From positions 60,536,181 to 60,600,180 of the forward strand of contig NC_134848.1 of the NCBI RefSeq assembly GCF_965363235.1: a stretch of DNA of 64,000 nucleotides. Reading direction: 5' to 3'. The translations under genes were made by a program, and so were the position numbers. The notes below the pieces were generated by a model. The model saw only the letters and a program-made list of their open reading frames with translations. It was not told the DNA's origin and ran no database searches. Position 1 is the stretch's first letter; every line of letters starts with the position of its first letter. Shown one piece after another: positions 6,001 through 44,580 of the stretch. The stretch comes from Mytilus galloprovincialis. Taxonomy: Eukaryota > Mollusca > Bivalvia > Mytilida > Mytilidae.

Positions 6001-9000
6001 GGTTTTTCTTCTACGATACAGGGTAAAATGTTTTGCTACATAATACCCATGTTTTTTCATAAAAGAATTGAATATCCCATAAAAGGTATTTTACCAAAAT
6101 TGAAACAGATTCTAGATTACTTTTCTTTCGATTTTAGGCCCAAATAATACCAAGGCAAATATAAGGCAAAAGTCCGAGGCAGCCTTTTCCCATCATTTAA
6201 AAAAAAAAATCTCTCAAACTAATGCTATTCTGACTTATAGCATCAATTTTAAATTCTAGAATTATTTAATTTTACCTAAGTACACCCTTAATGTATGCAT
6301 TTCACTGACATTTCATTTCAAAAATATTGTGATGAGATATATTCCAGCAGTAGTCTTAAAGTGATGTGGATTCTTAAAAATTCTAAAGATCTACTGCTAA
6401 ATCTTAGATCTAAATTTCTGCAATTTTGCAGCATCATTAAAACTTTTGATTTGTCTACGCTTTACACTACTATTCCCCATGCTCAATTAAAAGATCGACT
6501 TCAACATCCATTAAACAGAGCTTTCTATAAAAAGGGAAATCGTAGATACAAATTTTTTGTTTTTGGTTATAATAATTCTACTTTTGTGAAGAGCCACACT
6601 GATTCTACCCATAACATATACTGAAGAGATGATATTATCAAAATGCTGGACTTTTTGATTGACAACATATTTGTTAAGTTTGGAGGATTGATATTTCAAC
6701 AGACAGTCGGTATTACAGACAGTACTAATTGTGCATCTCTACTGGCTGATTTGTTTTTGTACTCGTATGTAGCAGAATTCATTCAAAACCTTCTAAAAGA
6801 CATACAGAAAAAGCACCTTGTGAAATTCTTTAATTTCACTTTCAGATATATTGATGATGTCCTCTCACTGAATAACCCGTATTTCAGCCAATACTTACAT
6901 CTCATATATCCAAGTGAACTTAAAAATTAAGGATACTACTGATACTAGGAGGACTGCTTCATACCTTGATCGTTTACTCAATATTGACACAGATAGACGA
7001 CTTCACACTAAAATCTATGACAAACGGGACGATTTTAACTTCCCAATTATCAACTTCCCATTTCTCAACAGTAACATACCCTTTGCCCCATCGTATGGTG
7101 TTTACATATCTCAGTTCATACGTTATACTTGTGCATGTTCAAACTATACGGACTTCATATACAGGAGTGTGCTCCAACAGAGTTATGAAGAGGAAAGATT
7201 AAAATTAACACTCCGTAAATGTTATGGACACCATCACGAATTGGTTAATCTAATGATGTTTCTTTGTCTAAACTAACTAACGACATTTTTACCACGTCTT
7301 AGATTGTGGTTTATCATCTACGTCGTCTGGTCTTCTAACTACCAAACATGACATATTCCCAAATATGACTGTTTTGCTGAGTGTAAAGTCGCATTGATAT
7401 AAGACGTGTCTCGGTATTTGTTCATCCAACATTCATGTATTTAGTTATGATGTTCCATATGTAGTTATTGTTGGATGTTGTTTAATGTCTTATCGTTTAT
7501 GGTTTTAATTCTATTTTTCTTTTTCTTTATGTATGTAAAAGTAAAGATATTAATCATCTAGATCATTTATATGATTTTTAGGTTAAAAGTAACTATATGC
7601 ACATGATTCATTTGTGAAAAACCATGGTTTTAAAATACAAATAATGACACCATTACTAACACAATTTTATATTAATATTCTTGTAATGGTTAGAAAAAAC
7701 ATCAAATAACACCATTACAAACTTAATCCCAATTTCCTATTGTAATTTTAGAAATTTACCTGTGACGTCACTTTTTGTGGCGTTGATACATTCGTGTGAC
7801 GCATAGTTCATTATTCTGTTGTGCTGTAATTGTGTTTTGTCACAAATTAATCTTAGATGTTCGTTGTTATTCTGTGGTTTACATGGTGAAATGGACTATT
7901 ATATTAATTTTTAATGTATTTCTCTGTCCTGAATGTACTTGTATTTATTTGTACTTTATTCCTGTCACGTAATGTTGTTTTTATCGGTATTGTTAACATT
8001 GCTATATAAGCGGGAGGTTCGACACGCCATTTTTTCTTAAAATGTCCTGAACCAGGTCAGGAATATGGCAATTGTTATCACATAGTCCGTGTTTATGTAT
8101 GTTGGCGTTTTTTTAGCAGTCCAGTGTTTGTGGTTTTATAAATTGACCATAAACCCACTTATTCATGGTATGGTATCAATATTTCTGACCTGACACTACG
8201 TACTTTTTATTGCTTAATTCATTAGAATTTAATATGCAATGTTTCGGGTTCTTTCGGGAATAATCCCAGGTAAACCCTCATCAGAGGTCGACCTTTATAT
8301 ATTTATTTCGTATCTAGTATCATAGATAGATGTGTGTCTGTTTCATAACAGTTTTTTTCAAATTTACTACACGTGCATATAGGTCTACGTTGTAGCTAGT
8401 CTTTTTACAGACTAAAGAAACTGACCAAGTAGATCAGCACCTTTGGTTAATTATTCATATATATAATGAAAAGACTTATTGTCTTTATTCACGTGATCTA
8501 ATCTATCATAAATCTACACGAGATCTAATAGAGATAGTAGTTATCAGTGCTATACTGTGGAATTCAACAGCAGACTGTCGTGTATGTTTTAACACCTATT
8601 TGATAATATACAAATGTCTCCATGTTTAACAATTGAAGTGGTTTGTGTAGATACCATGTCGGGTCTATACATGAATATAACAGGAACCATTCGGTTTTCC
8701 TTGTATGTGATCGCTTGAAGATAAACGGCATCACGTCTTTTTACATCTGTTTCACAGATTGTATACTGAAGCCTCCCGTGGTGGGGTATTGTGAATCAAT
8801 GTCTTTGGCTTAATGATTAATTATCATGTTGCCAATATTCTTATTGTTTTTTAAACCACTATCTGGTTTGGATTTAGATAGTTTTTTTTTTTTTTTTTTT
8901 TTTGTTATCTATCTTTTGGCAGTCGGATCTTTCCGGTTTATATACCAACATTTTTGTTAATACCGTGTTAAGATATTCAAAAATATTTCAGTCATTTGTT

Positions 9001-12000
9001 TTCTAATCTTTGGTTTCTTTGAGAGTTTCTATATGCATCTATGCTAACTTAGTCTAACTGTTTCGTTAGGGTGAAATGTGCAAGACATGTATACTTTAGA
9101 ACGTATATATACGCTTTTCTCTTTAGTACATGTTGCTATTGTTTCTAAGAATTCTCGTACCTTCCGAAGGAATGAAAACAGTGTACTATTTCAAATAGTT
9201 GTTCACTTTGTTCACTTTCTTCATTAAATTTATTAAATCCATCAATTCTCATTCTTAAGTGGAATTTAATATTATTCTTATAGCATATTTCTCTGTTTTA
9301 TGTCTATAATTATGGTCAAAATTAGCAGTATCAGATATTTCCAGGGAGGCAACTCTGCCCATTGAAACGCCAACGATCTGTTGCTAGTATAATAGTATAA
9401 CTTTCGTTGTTCATTGACAATCATATTTATTTGTTATTAGTTTCTATGTAACCTTAAACGGCTTGACATACTAATTAGTATCGATATTAGTTGCTTAACG
9501 TCTAGTTGCCAATATTTCATGTATGTTTAGGACTATGATATAGTAATGACAAGGTTGTTTGCTAGTATAATAGTATAACTTCCATAGTTCATTGACAATC
9601 ATATTTGTTTTAGTCAGTTTCCATGCTACCTTCTATGGTTTGACATGATACAGCGATGAATAATTATTGTTGACTGCTTAACATCCAGTGGCAAATATTT
9701 CATGTATGTTTAGGACTATATAAGATATAGTATAATGACATAAGGTTGTTTGCTAGTATAATAGTATAACTTCCATAGTTCATTGACAATCATATTTGTT
9801 TTAGTTAGTTTCCATGCTACCTTGTCAGGTTTGACATGATACAGCGATGAATTATTGGCTGTTTGTTGATTAACATCCAGTGGCACGTATTTCATGTATG
9901 TTTTGGACTATGATATAGTAATGACATAGGGTGTTTGCTAGTATAATAGTATAACTTCTATAGTTCATTTGCAATCATATTTGTTTTAGTCAGTTTCCAT
10001 GCTACCTTGTAAGGTTTGACATGATACAGCGATGAATTATTGATTGTTTGTTGCTTACATCCAGTGGCAAATATTTCATGTATGTTTAGGACTATGATAT
10101 AGTAGTGCTATAAGGTTGTTTGCTAGTATAATAGTATAACTTCCATAGTTCATTGACAATCATATTTGTTTTAGTCAGTTTCCATGCTACCTTGTAAGGT
10201 TTGACATGATACAGCGATGAACTATTGATTGTTGGTTGCTAAACATCCAGTGGCAAATATTTCATATATGTTTAGGACTATGATATAGTAATAACATAAA
10301 GTTGTTTGCTAGTATACTATAGTATAACTTCAATAGTTCATTGACAATCATATTTGTTTTAGTCAGTTTCCATGCTACCTTGTAAGGTTTGACATGATAC
10401 AGTGATGAATTATTGGTTTGTTTGTTGCTTAACATCCAGTTGCAAGTATTTCATGTATGTTTTGGACTATGATATAGTAAAGACATAAGGTTGTTTGCTA
10501 GTATAATAGTATAACTTCCATAGTTCATTGACAATCGTATTTGTTTAGTCAGTTTCCATGCTACCTTGTAAGGTTTGACATGATACAGCGATAAATTATT
10601 GATTGTTGGTTGCTTAACATCTAGTAGCAAATAGTTCATGTATGTTTAGGACTATAATATAGTAATCACATAAGGTTGTTTGCTAGTATAATAGTATAAC
10701 TTCCATAGTTCATTGACAATCATATTTGTTTTAGTCAGTTTCAATGCTACCTTGTAAGGTTTGACATGATACATCGATGAATTATTGATTGTTTGTTGCT
10801 TTATATCCAGTTGCAAGTATTTCATGTATGTTTTGGACTATGATATAGTAGTGCCATAAGGTTGTTTGCTAGTATAATAGTTTAACTTCCATAGTTCATT
10901 GACAATCATAATTGTTTTAGTTTCCATGCTACCTTGTAAGGTTTGACATGATACAGCGATGAATTATTGATTGTTGGTTGCTAAACATCCAGTGGCAGAT
11001 ATTTCATGTATGTTTAGGACTCTGATATAGTAATGACATAAGGTTGTTTGCTAGTATAATAGTATAACTTCCATAGTTCATTGACAATCATATTTGTTTT
11101 AGTCAGTTTCCATGCTACCTTGGTCAGGTTTGACATGATACAGCGATGAATTATTGGCTGTTTGTTGATTAACATCCAGTGGCAAGTATTTCATGTAGGT
11201 TTTGGACTATGATATAGTAATGACATAGGGTTGTTTGCTAGTATTATAGTATAACTTCCATAGTTCATCGACAATCATATTTGTTTTAGTCAGTTTTCAT
11301 GCTACCTTGTAAGGTTTGACATGATACAGCGATGAATTATCTTCATTAGTGGTGACAGGATCATAAATTAAATATCACATTAGTCATTGGTGCATTATAT
11401 TGTCCTATATTGTGTGACAATATTATTTTCACCTCCCGTTTCAATGAAACGGGATTATTATCATTTAAATAATTATTAAATAATAAATATGATTCAACAT
11501 TGTTTATATGTTCTATATATACATTTTATTTTTGTATTATATAATTTTATTTTTGTATTATATAATTTTATTTTATTTTTGTATTCTATTATTTTTATTT
11601 TTATTTCAGTTCATTCTGTATACATCGATATATTAAGTTATTCACTTTACATATATATTAGATTTCTATTATTTGTATCTTATGGTATATGTAGATTGTT
11701 TACGATGTACAATATTATAAACATATACAAAGATGCATACTATTGCATTGTGCATATAGTATAGTGTCGTACGTAGTTTCTCGATCAGAAATACGTCGTA
11801 CCATAGCATAAATAAGGATCAAAAATTCTATAATGAAATAGAACCTGATTCAACGGGTGAGATCACAACAAGTGAAAAATTCACCGTATCAAATAGTTTT
11901 ATAAATTGACCATAAACCCACTTATTCATGGTATGGTATCAATATTTCTGACCTGACACTACGTACTTTTTATTGCTTAATTCATTAGAATTTAATATGC

Positions 12001-15000
12001 AATGTTTCGGGTTCTTTCGGGAATAATCCCAGGTAAACCCTCATCAGAGGTCGACCTTTATATATTTATTTCGTATCTAGTATCATAGATAGATGTGTGT
12101 CTGTTTCATAACAGTTTTTTTCAAATTTACTACACGTGCATATAGGTCTACGTTGTAGCTAGTCTTTTTACAGACTAAAGAAACTGACCAAGTAGATCAG
12201 CACCTTTGGTTAATTATTCATATATATAATGAAAAGACTTATTGTCTTTATTCACGTGATCTAATCTATCATAAATCTACACGAGATCTAATAGAGATAG
12301 TAGTTATCAGTGCTATACTGTGGAATTCAACAGCAGACTGTCGTGTATGTTTTAACACCTATTTGATAATATACAAATGTCTCCATGTTTAACAATTGAA
12401 GTGGTTTGTGTAGATACCATGTCGGGTCTATACATGAATATAACAGGAACCATTCGGTTTTCCTTGTATGTGATCGCTTGAAGATAAACGGCATCACGTC
12501 TTTTTACATCTGTTTCACAGATTGTATACTGAAGCCTCCCGTGGTGGGGTATTGTGAATCAATGTCTTTGGCTTAATGATTAATTATCATGTTGCCAATA
12601 TTCTTATTGTTTTTTAAACCACTATCTGGTTTGGATTTAGATAGTTTTTTTTTTTTTTTGTTATCTATCTTTTGGCAGTCGGATCTTTCCGGTTTATATA
12701 CCAACATTTTTGTTAATACCGTGTTAAGATATTCAAAAATATTTCAGTCATTTGTTTTCTAATCTTTGGTTTCTTTGAGAGTTTCTATATGCATCTATGC
12801 TAACTTAGTCTAACTGTTTCGTTAGGGTGAAATGTGCAAGACATGTATACTTTAGAACGTATATATACGATATGAGTCTGTAAAAAGACTAGCTACAACG
12901 TAGACCTATATGCACGTGTAGTAAATTTGAAAAAAACTGTTATGAAACAGACACACATCTATCTATGATACTAGATACGAAATAAATATATAAAGGTCGA
13001 CCTCTGATGAGGGTTTACCTGGGATTATTCCCGAAAGAACCCGAAACATTGCATATTAAATTCTAATGAATTAAGCAATAAAAAGTACGTAGTGTCAGGT
13101 CAGAAATATTGATACCATACCATGAATAAGTGGGTTTATGGTCAATTTATAAAACTATTTGAGTCTGTAAAAAGACTAGCTACAACGTAGACCTATATGC
13201 ACGTGTAGTAAATTTGAAAAAAACTGTTATGAAACAGACACACATCTATCTATGATACTAGATACGAAATAAATATATAAAGGTCGACCTCTGATGAGGG
13301 TTTACCTGGGATTATTCCCGAAAGAACCCGAAACATTGCATATTAAATTCTAATGAATTAAGCAATAAAAAGTACGTAGTGTCAGGTCAGAAATATTGAT
13401 ACCATACCATGAATAAGTGGGTTTATGGTCAATTTATAAAACTGTTCCGTTTTGTTTCCTCTTATACTATCAAGTGTTTCCCTCAGTTTTGGTTTATGAC
13501 CCGCATTTGTTTCAGTTAAATAGATTTATGACTATTGAATAGCGGTATACTGCTATTGCCTTTATTTACAGATCGAAGGACCACATTTAACAGATAAGAC
13601 AGAACTGAATGACATAGAAATTATCTGTGGGAGTAGAGGGAGTGATCGTTGTGGTGACACGGCAAGTTCTGGTCAGCAGGTATGGGGAAATTGGACAGGG
13701 GAAGCACTTTGTCCGGCTAAGACATTTCTTACCTCATTTTCTCTACAAGTAGAGAAATACAATGTAAGTTGATTAAATCTAAAAATGTAACAAATATTTT
13801 CTCGATTTAAGCTATTAGAAATCTAAACGGATTTTATTATCAATGATATACTAAAAATTCTTGCAAAACAAACCACATGTTTGTTGTGTTCAAATCTCCT
13901 TTGCAAGTTTAATTAATTAAGTCCATTACAAAATGTCTGTATGGATGTACAGATAATTTGCAATATGAAATATGCATTGAACTGAAATTTTGAAATTCTA
14001 AGCTAGGTGATGAGTTGTTAATGTTTTTATTTTTGTCCTTGTACTTTGATATCTATATAATAATGTTTCTGATTTCAAGAAATATTACAAGGGGACAATA
14101 TTTCGTATTTCCTATTCCAAAAGATTTTTTTATGGGGACTTAAACAGACTAGCACTTTTGATCTATAAACATTACTCGGTGTCCGTCATTCATGCAATAA
14201 AGAATCTAAGTGAAATCGAATATGTTAAAATTACCTGTGTTTGATTTTGAATTTTTGAATTTTTAAACTTTTCTGTTAAACAAAATAAAAAAAACAATTG
14301 TAATGCCAGAGGTAGATATTGTTCTTTTAATCGCGAGTTTTTTTTCTGTAACATTTAACATTTAATATCATGTATAATTTTAACATACTGAAAATTATGT
14401 AACTTTCATACATTTACTACCTTAGTAAAGTTAAAACATTGATGTAAAAACATCAGGGTAAGAATTAAAGAAACTGGTCAATCCTAAACCTTGGTATGCC
14501 ATTGTAGATTTTAGATGGTTATCATTGTTTCATTTGATATTCATTAAGCCCAGTTACCAGGGTTTGGATATTGGCATGATGCCGATGATACATTTTAACA
14601 GTATAATTTCTTATCATAATTAATGAAATTGTACTAAAACTGATGTTATGTAAATGTACTAAAGCTAATGTTATGCGATTGTACTAAATTAATGCCACAA
14701 TTGCTTAAGACAAAATTGACCTTAGATTCAGCTGTTCTGTTTTGAATTTTTGCAGTTTTCATCTATCTAGTTTCACTTAGCATAGATGCAAGGATAAACA
14801 TGTTGTACGCGTTCGTCTACAACAAACTCACCAGAGACGCTCGAACCAAAAAAAGTTAAAAAGGCGAAATTAAGTACGAAGCTGAAAATTCGAAAGATTT
14901 TGCCAAATGCAGCTAAGATAATATTCATAGGGTAGATAATCTTAGTATTTTGAAAATTTCAAATTATTTATATTTTTAGCCCTGGAGATTCTTAATTTCG

Positions 15001-29118: not shown

Positions 29119-29424
29119 AAAGGTAAATCATTCGATTGACCGATTCGATCCACAAAACATCATTCTTATACAGGTAAAACCGAAAATTAACTTAATTTTA
29201 AACCTGAAAATTGAAATCAAACAGACATAGAAAATGTAAATCGCTTGTTTTAGACTTTTTGTAATTTGGATAAATGTTTTACACTGTTATAAATCTAATA
29301 TGAACATTTGAGTCAAATCGGTGAACATGAATTTGACAGCTAGTGCCAATTTAACTTTCAATCTGGCGAATTCGAAATAATATTTATTATATTTGGTCTG
29401 TCTTTATTACAGGTAATTCTTAAA

Positions 29425-31569
29425 ATGAGAATATACATCCTTTTTGTGTTTGCGCTTGGTTTCCTAAATATAAGCAAAGGTTATGTAATGCAGAAAGAAT
29501 GCCACAAGAATTGTAAATGCACAATTAGGCGTTCAAAGAAACGTGAAGCTGTTTGTAATGGAAGAGGTTTGCATTACATTCCACAATTTCCAGATCAGAT
29601 AATTTCTGTTATAATGAGTGGAACAAATTTGACGAATATTGAAAAAAATGGATTCAAGAATTTGACCTATATTAGACTGAAAGAATTAACATTAGATAAC
29701 AATCTTATTACGTTTATTCATGAAGATGCTTTTGTCAATTTGAAATTTCTGGATAAATTGCGTATTTTTCAAGAAACAAATCTAGAGGTGAATGTAATAA
29801 AGGTATCCGTTGGGAAAATGAAAACAAGGAATCTCCGATCTTTATATTTTCAGAATAACAACTGGCTTTTCCTTCCAGTCGATATGTTTACAAGTTTTTC
29901 ATACAGTGAAATACGAACTGTTAGAATTAATGGTAACAGTTTTTCTAAACTAAAGAGTGCGACATTTTCACCATTAAAAAAGTTGCAAAAGCTGTTTTTG
30001 AATAAAAATGAGATTGAACATATTGATTTAAAAGGCATTTCGAAGGATTTAGTAGATTTGCGTTTGAATGAAAATCTTCTCTCAAAGGTTCCGGAATGGT
30101 GTACGAAGGATAGCCGAGTTGTCAGTTTAGTCAACAAATTAGAAAGTTTAGATTTAAGCGATAATAACATTGGGGACATTAGAATAAAAGCTTTTCTATG
30201 TTTGCCAAATTTGAAGAAGCTTTTACTCAATAGAATGCCAATGAGGAGAATTCGGTCAAATATATTCGCATTCCTCCCAGTTTTGCATTCTTTACAACTC
30301 TCGAAAATAGGGTTTCCTTTGCAAAAAATAGACGATTATGCGTTCAATAGTTCATCTCTTTCAAGTCTGCATATGGATGTTGCAAATTTCCATTTCGACC
30401 GGAATGAGTTTAATCCACAGACTATTTTTTCCTTGTCACCAAATCTAAGTTTTCTAAACTTAGACCATAATTTTTTCCCTAGAAACGAAACAAAGATGCA
30501 ACAAATATTTTCACCTTTAGTAAGGCTGAAAAATTTAATAATATCCTCAGCCAGTCTTTTTATTCTTCCAAAAAATGTTTTTCCGTTCTTAAAATCACTC
30601 GAAATATTGACCCTAAGCTCAAACAGATTGTCAGATTGGAATGATGGTAGTGAAATATTTCGGAATATGACGTCTCTTAGGAACCTCAACATGAAAGATA
30701 ATTTCATCAAAATTATAAATAAAAAAACATTCCCTGCAGACGTACTCAGATCTTTAAAAGTTCTGGATTTGAGCTATAATTCGTTTGTATGCACTTGTGA
30801 TCAACTATGGTTTACAGAATGGATTAAAACAACTAAAGTAAAGCTTCTCAGTTATCCAACGCTATATAAATGTAGGTCACCACCAGCGCTTGATGGAACG
30901 TTACTTCAAAAGTATGTTAACTCGTCTAAGGAGTGTCCTCCATGGAATCCTATTTATACAATGGTGATAATCTTGTTATTGTCTGTTGCGGTATTAGCTG
31001 TGATATTTGCGATAATAATAAAGTGTCAAACAAACATTAAAAATTATTTATACCTATGGAGAATCAATTACAACAGAAGAAAAGGTTATCTCCCCTTGCA
31101 AGATGCAGATGATTTCGAATATCATGCATTTGTTGTATATTGTGATGCAGATCGGCATTGGGTTCATCACAAGTTTCTAAAGAAACTAGAACAAGATGAA
31201 GGAATGAAACTTTGCATTCATCATAGAGATTTTGAAATCGGGGAATCAATTACTGCAAACATCAATAACTATCTCGAGAAATCATGGAAAGTTGTTGTTA
31301 TTTTATCAAATGATTTTGCAAAAAGTGAATGGTGTCAATGGGAGGTTGATATCGTTCAAGAGCGAAGGCGTAGACAGGGAAGGGATGTTTTTTTATTGAT
31401 TATGCTTAAAAGTATTGACTCTAAACATATGACGAATCAACTCAGAGCCCTTCTAGACAGTGCATCAAGTCTGAAATATCCAGTGGGCGTTGGCGAAGAA
31501 CTGTTCTGGACGGCAGCAGTAGAAACACTTAGAAAGCCATTGGGGCATCCACCGACAGCACTGTTATGA
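29425..31569 (+). CDS. Toll-like receptor, single coding exon
   Basis: 714 aa type I membrane receptor. Residues 1-19 are a signal peptide. An LRRNT cysteine cluster is at C26, C30, C32, C44. About 14 leucine-rich repeats follow, for example LKKLLLNRMP and LKVLDLSYNSF. The LRRCT has C456, C458, C483, C504. The transmembrane helix is about 510-534. The TIR domain is about 563-705 with box 1 (YHAFVVY at 566-572), BB-loop RDFEIGE (601-607) and box 3 FW (694-695). One C-terminal cysteine cluster makes it the vertebrate-like single-cluster type. TIR domains recruit adaptors such as MyD88 to activate NF-kB; the ligand cannot be predicted. The BB-loop has Ile605 where most TLRs have Pro and TLR3 has Ala. 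The ATG was chosen because it directly precedes the signal peptide and follows a splice acceptor. Candidate ATTAAA signals lie near 31740 and 31758. No paralogue is in the window. Confidence 0.95.
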   Translation: MRIYILFVFALGFLNISKGYVMQKECHKNCKCTIRRSKKREAVCNGRGLHYIPQFPDQIISVIMSGTNLTNIEKNGFKNLTYIRLKELTLDNNLITFIHEDAFVNLKFLDKLRIFQETNLEVNVIKVSVGKMKTRNLRSLYFQNNNWLFLPVDMFTSFSYSEIRTVRINGNSFSKLKSATFSPLKKLQKLFLNKNEIEHIDLKGISKDLVDLRLNENLLSKVPEWCTKDSRVVSLVNKLESLDLSDNNIGDIRIKAFLCLPNLKKLLLNRMPMRRIRSNIFAFLPVLHSLQLSKIGFPLQKIDDYAFNSSSLSSLHMDVANFHFDRNEFNPQTIFSLSPNLSFLNLDHNFFPRNETKMQQIFSPLVRLKNLIISSASLFILPKNVFPFLKSLEILTLSSNRLSDWNDGSEIFRNMTSLRNLNMKDNFIKIINKKTFPADVLRSLKVLDLSYNSFVCTCDQLWFTEWIKTTKVKLLSYPTLYKCRSPPALDGTLLQKYVNSSKECPPWNPIYTMVIILLLSVAVLAVIFAIIIKCQTNIKNYLYLWRINYNRRKGYLPLQDADDFEYHAFVVYCDADRHWVHHKFLKKLEQDEGMKLCIHHRDFEIGESITANINNYLEKSWKVVVILSNDFAKSEWCQWEVDIVQERRRRQGRDVFLLIMLKSIDSKHMTNQLRALLDSASSLKYPVGVGEELFWTAAVETLRKPLGHPPTALL

Positions 31570-35190: not shown

Positions 35191-35310
35191 CACATAAAAC
35201 TCATGTGTGAGCTAAACACACTCATAAAACTCATGTGTGAGCAAAACACACTCATAAAACTCATGTGTGAGCAAAACACACTCATAAAACTTATGTGTGA
35301 GCAAAACACA
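35191..35310 (+). repeat. 30-bp minisatellite, four units
   Basis: Four 30-bp units of 'ctcataaaactcatgtgtga' plus 'gcaaaacaca'; the middle units are identical. Each unit contains the small palindrome CTCATGTGTGAG. Absent from unit 1. Confidence 0.9.
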
Positions 35311-40319: not shown

Positions 40320-41560
40320 AAACATATTTTATTTGCTGAATTAAAGCAAAATGGAGTAGACACAAGTAAATCATACTTATGAAGTCTTCTCCATAATATA
40401 ATATAAAGTTACAATAGTAGTATAATATAAATGACATGCATATAAAACAAACAGTTTATACAATATAAAACTAGCTTTCATAGGTGAACAAAGAGGAGAG
40501 AAAGTAAAAAGAGAAAAAGAAAGTTTGAAAAGTCGTATAATTCTGTGACGGTGACTTGTGAATTGATGACAACGATGAAGTTCCGTGTCGGTAATAATAA
40601 CGCTCTATCAAGGCATAAGAAATCTGTTTGACCTTTTTAAGAAATTTTGAACATGTTTGAAAATTTGAATATTTTTTGAATATTTTGTTCGTTCGAAAGT
40701 TCCAAGTGTCCGCAAACTAATAGTTTTGTATCTAAAACAAAGTTTTCAGATAACCAGTTAAGGCTATGGAATAAGATTTTTCTACACAATGTGTATTTTG
40801 GGCAAACGAAGAAGTAATGGTAGACATCCTCAATATCGGACCCACAATGGCAAGAAGGATCATCTGTAATATTAGCTCTAAATAGGTCATTGTTTACGAA
40901 TGAAGCGGAACATGGCAATTGCGTTAAGATAATATTTAATTTCCTTAGGCGGTACAAATAAAACGTATCAATTTTACATAATAGACTATCGTTTTTTAAT
41001 TCTTTCTTCAATTTAGAAATAGAGTCGACACTGCGAAATTTTGCATCAAGTTTATTCCATTCACGTATAGTAGAGGCAATAAACGATTCAGTAGTAATGG
41101 AAAGTCTACAAAATGGAATAATAATATCATGACCATTTCACAACGGGTAGTTGGTTGTACTTTGTACACAAGGAGGTACAAGATAACATAAATATTCTGG
41201 TGCATGCTTTTGGTTCATGTTATAAAACATCTGTAATTTTCTTCTCCTTCTTCTTTCAAAAAGAGATTCCCAGCCAATCTCAGAATATAAAGTTTCAGTT
41301 TTTGTAAATATTGGTAGACCGGTTACTATTCTTGCGGCCTCTAAATGGAATTTTTCTAATTTATGTGAGTAGCCTATTTCACAATAATCCCAAACTTTCG
41401 TAGCATATTCAAAAATGGGTCGAATAAAAACTAAGTATAGTTTTTCTTAATTATTTCGATATAATCGGTATTTTAGTTTACGTAAAACATTTAAGTGTTT
41501 CTTTACACTTATAATTATACTTTCAATATGATTGTTCCAAGTTACTGTTAGCTAGTTAAA
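40320..41560 (-). mobile_element. 5'-truncated LINE, RT thumb and C-terminal zinc-finger region
   Basis: On the minus strand, one frame encodes the end of a non-LTR polymerase: 'LRKLKYRLYRNN', 'YLVFIRPIFEYATKVWD', 'IVTGLPIFTKTETLYSEIGW', 'IREWNKLDAKFR', then the zf-RVT motif CHC...HYFFVC. Two in-frame stops interrupt it, TAA at 41447-41449 and TGA at 41138-41140. The 3' tail ends near AAATAAAATATG (about 40325-40336). It sits in unit 2 only, so it arrived after the duplication or was lost from unit 1. It is a different lineage from the LINE at 944 by its sequence. Confidence 0.75.
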
Positions 41561-44289: not shown

Positions 44290-44580
44290 TCATAGGGAAC
44301 ATATTTACTAAGTTTCGAGTTGGTTTGACTTCAACTTCATCAAAAACTGCCTCGACAAAAACTTTAACCTGAAGCGGGACAGACAGACGGACGAACGAAC
44401 GAACGATTGGACAGACTAGAAAACATAACTCCCATAAATGGGGCATACAAATTTATTGTTGAAAGTGAAAACTTAAACCTGAAGCAGGACAGAAGGACGG
44501 ACGAATGAACGAACGGACGAACAGACTAGAAAACATAATTCTCATAAATGGGGCATACAAATTTTTGTTGAAAGTGAAAG
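44290..44580 (+). repeat. Dispersed repeat with two tandem roughly 108-bp units
   Basis: 'cttaaacctgaagcgggaca' starts a unit at about 44366 that recurs at about 44473; both contain a (GACG/GAAC)n stretch, 'aaacataactcccataaatg' and GAAAGTGAAA. I recognise the first unit as a common bivalve repeat tail. Non-coding. Confidence 0.65.

Follow-up and report, generated by a model that had tools for sequence, protein, structure and literature searches.

Penelope-like elements (PLEs) and the small retrozymes of animals are the described systems closest to an insertion that we analyzed in the mussel Mytilus galloprovincialis, within a 64,000-nt stretch of contig NC_134848.1 (assembly GCF_965363235.1, positions 60,536,181 to 60,600,180), hereafter the window. 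In the portions of PMC3846280 and PMC11167929 available to us, PLEs of the Penelope/Poseidon type carry a pseudo-long terminal repeat (pLTR) holding a hammerhead ribozyme and the first codons of the open reading frame (ORF), form partial tandems, and present an inverted pLTR on the 5' side, an internal start of the reverse transcriptase (RT) and non-ORF sequence between the pLTRs, features that recur or are predicted at this locus. The mussel elements differ from them in several respects: the scanned ORFs yielded no GIY-YIG endonuclease, no target duplication flush with the ends exceeds 2 bp (some of the published copies described in those portions lack one too), and 5' ends at the ribozyme cut site are visible in this genome.

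Endonuclease-deficient PLEs (Athena, Coprina and the Terminons), whose traits are in part general background of the field, make up a second group of counterparts. As described in the accessible parts of PMC3846280 and PMC6431247, they share with the locus an RT-only ORF and, in the Terminons, hammerheads; Athena and the Terminons are telomere-associated, whereas the window element is internal, at 60.5 Mb of an 86.5-Mb contig, and the endonuclease-deficient PLEs of protists and fungi are presented in that part of PMC3846280 as devoid of the inverted-pLTR organization. Metazoan type I retrozymes, in the available part of PMC7229834, resemble the locus, a bivalve sequence with a hammerhead unit of ~290 bp arranged as a tandem dimer, and their monomers of 170-400 nt accommodate the 287-bp dimer unit of the window in size; that unit, however, is a PLE pLTR containing an ORF start codon, and the main unit of the element measures about 4 kb with its satellite.

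Here we report that the window element is, as judged from its sequence, a non-autonomous, satellite-carrying PLE, an element of ordinary kind caught in an informative state. Its layout is already known, and two of its features are variants: the form that lacks the ORF and bears a satellite, and the Penelope layout around an RT-only ORF. What is new, and worth following, is the apparent genomic footprint of ribozyme cleavage.

The hammerhead-bearing unit and its copies

The window insertion (5.3 kb in all; Table 1) consists of a minus-strand stack of about 1.3 units followed by a plus-strand stack of two pLTRs, and its four 281-nt pLTR copies do not differ at any position. In sense order, the unit reads pLTR, segment C, 185-bp satellite, segment B, segment A, pLTR. 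The 3' ends of the pLTR copies point outward on both strands, and both outer ends of the insertion correspond to a single element position (281). A repeat search of the window returned 8133-8432 and 11896-12195 as direct repeats (100% identical) and 12867-13153/13154-13440 as a tandem dimer of a 287-bp unit (99%), with inverted arms that are 99-100% identical. These data bear out the first-pass annotation of the window, which had described four hammerhead-bearing copies, two on each strand, with inverted ends, 0.98-kb direct repeats (placed here at 8133-9113 and 11896-12869) and a plus-strand tandem dimer (here 12867-13440).

The same annotation had proposed a complete hammerhead within a 103-nt sequence, a prediction that both folding and conservation favor. 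The minimum-energy fold of 12996-13103 (108 nt) has the exact three-way hammerhead topology: stem I (GACCU/AGGUC), a single-stranded CUGAUGA (7 nt), stem II, GAA, stem III and, at the junction, one C ahead of stem I (z -2.8; equal stability in 2 of 200 shuffles). Across 48 copies from the fetched loci that cover the core, shared insertions included, CTGATGA is kept in 46, as is the cleavage dinucleotide TC, and GAAA is kept in 47. Fold and core thus place a hammerhead motif within the pLTR, as in other PLEs, despite negative Rfam scans, and the predicted ribozyme has a complete helix III, a helix absent from most PLE hammerheads according to the accessible part of PMC6155905. Several results weigh against this assignment. 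In the wider stretch 12993-13118 the most stable structure contains a competing stem I (z -2.2; 5 of 200 shuffles), and the hammerhead topology thus depends on the chosen ends. Moreover, Rfam scans matched none of the four copies: no hammerhead was found in the whole window at gathering thresholds, in 8000-13600 at E up to 5 (where the only matches were two sub-threshold, chance-like sRNA hits) or in six loci at E up to 1.

Searches of the genome (1.385 Gb, 331 contigs) established that the window element is not unique. The 281-nt unit has at least 48 matches (best 40 of 146 candidates scored), of which 42 of the 48 listed are near full length, at 93-100% identity. Segment A has at least 48 matches (best 40 of 84 candidates scored), segment C has 26 (23 of 23 candidates scored) and the 185-bp satellite at least 294 (best 40 of 760 candidates scored), those listed lying mostly, as judged by eye, near loci with other element parts. 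Mapping the anatomy on the window and 20 fetched loci revealed successive pLTRs spaced at 3.7-4.3 kb at four loci (L001, L006, L008 and L012), with shorter spacings of about 1.1 kb at L020 and 2.4 kb at L004. In six of six insertions, the two A copies of one insertion are reciprocal best matches among 17 A copies (98.0-100% identity; the partial second A of L001 left out). Such pairing is what a single RNA or a single source locus per insertion would produce, and by itself it is compatible both with circles and with tandem transcripts.

Copies starting at the predicted cleavage site

The predicted scissile bond of the unit lies at position 222/223 (GTC^A). An exact genome-wide search with the 20 nt after the bond, requiring a preceding base other than C, retrieved 10 places for the family of the window element (family 1). 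Nine of them are genuine copy starts running to position 281, that is, 59-nt inserts (L002, L004, two at L021, L023, L024, and one common junction at L022, L025 and L026); the tenth (L027) is an intact but mutated copy (C17-to-T). In a second family, with an RT 53% identical to that of family 1 and a putative hammerhead core reading GTA^AGGCC, the corresponding search retrieved 11 places, all 11 of which proved on inspection to be genuine starts. Its inserts are about 57-66 nt long, and two of them (L048 and L049) are solitary short inserts between unrelated sequence. A control search 13 nt upstream, uninspected, found 0 places for family 2. The sampling comprised exact 20-mers at chosen positions.

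The coincidence of copy starts with the predicted bond argues for ribozyme cleavage in the animal and for reverse transcription of the cleaved RNA. By comparison, the family 1 controls at positions 206, 151 and 236 returned 2, 1 and 2 places (raw, uninspected counts). Against this reading stand two copies that start 1 nt off, L005 at 222 and the minus half of the pair at L022 at 224. In addition, the 3' ends of family 2 vary by several nt, and its best fold is not hammerhead stem I and barely surpasses shuffles (z -0.9; 35 of 200), its hammerhead being tentatively assigned from the core motif and pairing by eye. Common junctions (L022/L025/L026; L045/L046) also mean that independent events are fewer than matches, and we infer transcription, cleavage and RNA circles alike from genomic sequence.

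RTs pause at RNA structure, and the hammerhead lies just upstream of position 223, so the starts might reflect stalling on the folded ribozyme rather than cleaved RNA, a reading with which the two copies 1 nt off would agree. Yet the two families, whose sequences differ at the predicted scissile bond, both have their starts on it and, since positions 223-227 form the 3' strand of stem I, a stalled RT would be expected to stop near 228, before the stem. We therefore regard stalling as unlikely, if the strongest of the alternatives, and favor copying of cleaved RNA.

In the accessible PLE hammerhead literature we found no report of genomic copies starting at the cut site, and our claim of novelty extends to that literature only. 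For the PLE of the anole, the available part of PMC11167929 describes hammerhead cleavage as dispensable in vitro, with no RNA reads at the cut site. Cut-site copies in two families bear on the role of the hammerhead in PLE retrotransposition.

Position 1 of the unit is a second recurrent 5' end. Searching for it with a preceding base other than T yielded 22 places (12 preceded by C, 9 by G and 1 by A). The usual upstream sequence continues in four inspected of the 12 C-preceded places, and four of the nine G-preceded places share one junction. The context across position 1 at L013 (TCAGTC) and positions +28 to +32 of the unit (AGACC) match the consensus of the initiator (Inr) and the downstream promoter element (DPE), and position 1 looks like a transcription start at an Inr/DPE-like site. 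The G before it may be a cap trace or an untemplated addition, and at 13162 it may be the last base of the TATTTG tail. A G also precedes three cut-site copies that come after unrelated sequence, which softens the cap-trace idea.

Relationship to an autonomous Penelope-like element

At locus L013, the pLTR, which contains the hammerhead and the first ~11 codons, continues into an intact ORF of 631 aa (P0001) whose start codon lies within the pLTR. This RT ORF is on a chromosome other than that of the window element, and the two have the pLTR and start codon in common. Furthermore, segments B and A of the window are decayed pieces matching the RT core and the C-terminus of the 631-aa ORF, with the double-aspartate motif of segment B reading MRIDGF instead of MRDDGF. 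The PLE label rests on PLE-like RT motifs, on RVT_1 matches of relatives, and on pLTR, hammerhead and layout. Among five scanned RT relatives of the ORF (35-54% identity), RVT_1 is above the Pfam cut-off in L053 and L054, below it in L051 and L052 and absent from L050; the L001 fragment also matches RVT_1 below the cut-off (E 4e-4). Neither P0001 (E up to 1) nor the five relatives (E up to 0.1) contain a GIY-YIG endonuclease. Counting against the assignment, P0001 itself has no RT match in Pfam or in the NCBIfam scan, and no relevant PDB structure matches P0001 or a profile of six relatives.

The relationship between the two forms is most evident in an 18.3-kb composite on contig C8 (81.667-81.685 Mb), in which a minus stack (a window-type unit with pieces of the PLE ORF) is followed by a plus stack reading pLTR, C, satellite-like sequence, ORF and pLTR, and then pLTR, intact ORF and pLTR. 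Because segment C and satellite-like sequence lie between pLTR and ORF in this copy, they constitute the 5' region of the long form of the autonomous PLE, and the most plausible reading of the window unit is as an ORF-deleted derivative of it. A composite with a foreign satellite, enclosed by the repeats through chance, was considered and rejected, because segment C and the satellite-like sequence occur in the autonomous copy too. The window-type and autonomous-type parts of the C8 composite may have been deposited in one event. Two features weigh against a single event: the junction of the two parts falls elsewhere than at position 281, and the minus stack contains a short inverted ORF piece; a later insertion into an older copy, or a rearrangement, is possible there. 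The proposal that the window element is non-autonomous and Penelope-dependent gains from the RT remnants in its unit, the shared pLTR and start codon and the adjacency at C8; its dependence on that particular RT is what we infer.

The 287-bp tandem dimer (12867-13440) resembles described retrozyme dimers, and mussels have type I retrozymes of 350-390 bp, according to the available part of PMC7229834. The window element might accordingly be a metazoan retrozyme, that is, a small element without long terminal repeats (LTRs) but with type I hammerheads and a circular RNA, rather than a PLE. We consider this quite improbable, given that the 281-bp unit is a PLE pLTR with its start codon, that the long unit contains RT remnants, and that the outer ends and head-to-head stacks are PLE-like. 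An LTR-type retrozyme was also rejected, its ends and layout not fitting. We thus retain the PLE assignment.

Two further observations concern PLE ORFs elsewhere in the genome. At C11:8439764-8453291 (L055, L056), 11 matches to the 5' part of the PLE ORF recur at 1282-bp spacing; this repeat presented no pLTR match in the stretches read and was hence not used as evidence of rolling-circle copying. At L038, a further open frame (~200 aa by eye, MNKTGRNK...) lies between two tandem PLE RT ORFs.

Layout, 3' ends and target sites

All mixed-strand clusters (≤20 kb) among the listed matches are arranged minus-then-plus, head-to-head: nine of nine by ORF (70 matches, best 70 of 5533 candidates) and eight of eight by pLTR (48 matches, best 40 of 146 candidates), with one cluster common to both. 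Two direct pLTRs with an inverted pLTR on the 5' side, head-to-head, is the Penelope anatomy described in the accessible part of PMC3846280. That published anatomy and the uniformity of the clusters remove the main novelty claim of the first-pass annotation, in which the layout was not recognized as described.

The sense 3' end falls at position 281 (...TTTATAAAAC) in every aligned copy but one (L001 7926-8140, ending at 198), and the sequence after 281 differs among copies outside C- and ORF-type units. In a search with the terminal 18 nt, TA follows position 281 in 35 of 47 distinct junctions, some of which lie between copies. The flanks of the window insertion, which in sense begin with CA (left) and TG (right), do not conform to this preference. 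No flush target duplication longer than 2 bp was found in eight of eight two-sided insertions (0-2 bp in each); words of 4-11 bp shared within 12 nt of the ends in six of the eight are chance-like, the longest lying in an AT microsatellite. For Penelope/Poseidon, the accessible part of PMC3846280 describes target-site duplications of 8, 9 and 10 bp as well as copies without one. No telomere-like runs were seen by eye in flanks of 30-60 nt, where no dedicated search for telomeric repeats was made.

Older copies that were later rearranged or recombined at the DNA level could also give rise to direct and inverted copies. Common junctions (L009/L030/L031/L032 and L022/L025/L026) indicate that DNA-level duplication or re-copying occurs, and the inverted ORF piece at C8 points the same way. 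Set against this, the four window pLTRs are identical, the two window A copies show 0 substitutions over 674 aligned bases (with one gap, in a T run), and all listed mixed clusters have their 3' ends outward, which is not expected from random inversion, making a rearrangement origin very improbable. An assembly artefact has next to no likelihood: near-identical repeats are difficult to assemble, but many loci that differ in contig and flanks share the anatomy, and the many near-full-length copies of the 281-nt unit make an artefact at this one place unlikely.

A minimal palindromic insertion of two ~59-nt copies, head-to-head with 3' ends outward, is found with common flanks in three places (L022, L025 and L026), and has the window layout in miniature.

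A model of internal start and serial copying

We consider it likely that the joint explanation of these data is a recent non-autonomous PLE, an internal RT start and serial copying of primary, cleaved and multi-unit RNAs. The RT of intact relatives would start cDNA internally, just inside the ORF start (position 281/TA), and would do so at a broken target on each of the two strands, which would make both outer ends 3' ends pointing outward. It would then jump serially to further RNAs of the same source, the 5' end of each copy being set by the RNA that serves as template: a primary transcript from the Inr/DPE-like start (position 1) would give 281-nt copies, hammerhead-cleaved RNA (5' end at 223) would give 59-nt copies, and uncleaved multi-unit or circular RNA would give long tandem copies. 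One internal start and three template 5' situations would thus yield the three copy classes. Cleavage would leave only 59 nt upstream of the RT start, and hence shorten the template, unless the RNA is circularized or retains an uncleaved upstream unit.

In the available part of PMC11167929, the anole PLE is described as having an internal RT start just inside the ORF and as extending both target strands in vitro; self-priming, proposed in the accessible part of PMC3846280, is an alternative origin for the inversion. Serial copying provides one rule for three copy classes that is testable in other genomes, and, judging from the layout, RT-only PLEs may use the two strands of a break. More tentatively, and with the odds on balance against it, retrozyme-like hammerhead dimers might be by-products of PLE RT, if serial 281-nt and 59-nt copying from one internal start creates tandem units whose transcripts could release circles that serve again as templates. 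If so, cleavage would limit full-length retrotransposition while seeding a parasitic small-RNA lineage, and PLEs and retrozymes would be linked by descent and mechanism.

At L004 (5350-6538, plus strand), a pLTR tail leads into an RT frame that belongs to another PLE-like family, which may reflect a between-family template jump.

Features of the window

Table 1. Parts of the window element, in window coordinates.
Feature	Position	Strand	Remarks
pLTR copy 1, 281 bp	8133..8413	-	sense 3' terminus at 8133, the left outer end
Hammerhead of pLTR copy 1 (predicted)	about 8289-8187	-	predicted cut 8192/8191; PLE start codon 8166; coordinates derived from the unit
Segment A, 3' portion of PLE RT ORF (decayed) and 3' UTR (untranslated region)	8433..9113	-	protein match 8953-8813
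Segment B, decayed RT-core remnant	9114..9380	-	protein matches 9383-9312, 9282-9157
Satellite array, 10.6 copies of 185-bp unit	9381..11340	-	tandem-repeat search
Segment C, 5' region of element	11341..11892	-	23 candidates genome-wide, 23 of 23 scored
pLTR copy 2	11896..12176	-	exact 281-nt copy
Hammerhead of pLTR copy 2 (predicted)	about 12052-11950	-	predicted cut 11955/11954; start codon 11929; coordinates derived from the unit
Segment A, second copy, 5'-truncated	12196..12869	-	compared with 8433-9113
Filler ATATG at head-to-head junction of minus and plus stacks	12870..12874		sequence
pLTR copy 3	12875..13155	+	starts at putative transcription start (position 1), with G before it
Hammerhead of pLTR copy 3 (predicted)	12999-13101	+	cut 13096/13097; fold
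TATTTG spacer separating the two plus-strand pLTRs	13156..13161	+	equals the sequence after position 281 in C-type units (short tail)
pLTR copy 4	13162..13442	+	sense 3' terminus at 13442, the right outer end
Hammerhead of pLTR copy 4 (predicted)	13286-13388	+	cut 13383/13384; exact 281-nt copy

To the left of the insertion, frames at 6292-7276 (plus strand) contain RT-like motifs (TFDLSTLYTTIP and YIDDVL), presumably PLE-like, and belong to a different decayed element without a Pfam RT match. Elsewhere in the window, a 741-aa frame (29344-31569, plus strand) reads as Toll-like-receptor-like, with leucine-rich repeats, a transmembrane stretch and a TIR-like end, and two adjoining frames at 40637-41446 (minus strand) look by eye like the C-terminus of a LINE-type reverse transcriptase. 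Two short tandem arrays are also present, one of a 30-bp unit in 3.9 copies (35193-35310) and the other of a 110-bp unit in 2.0 copies (44358-44579).

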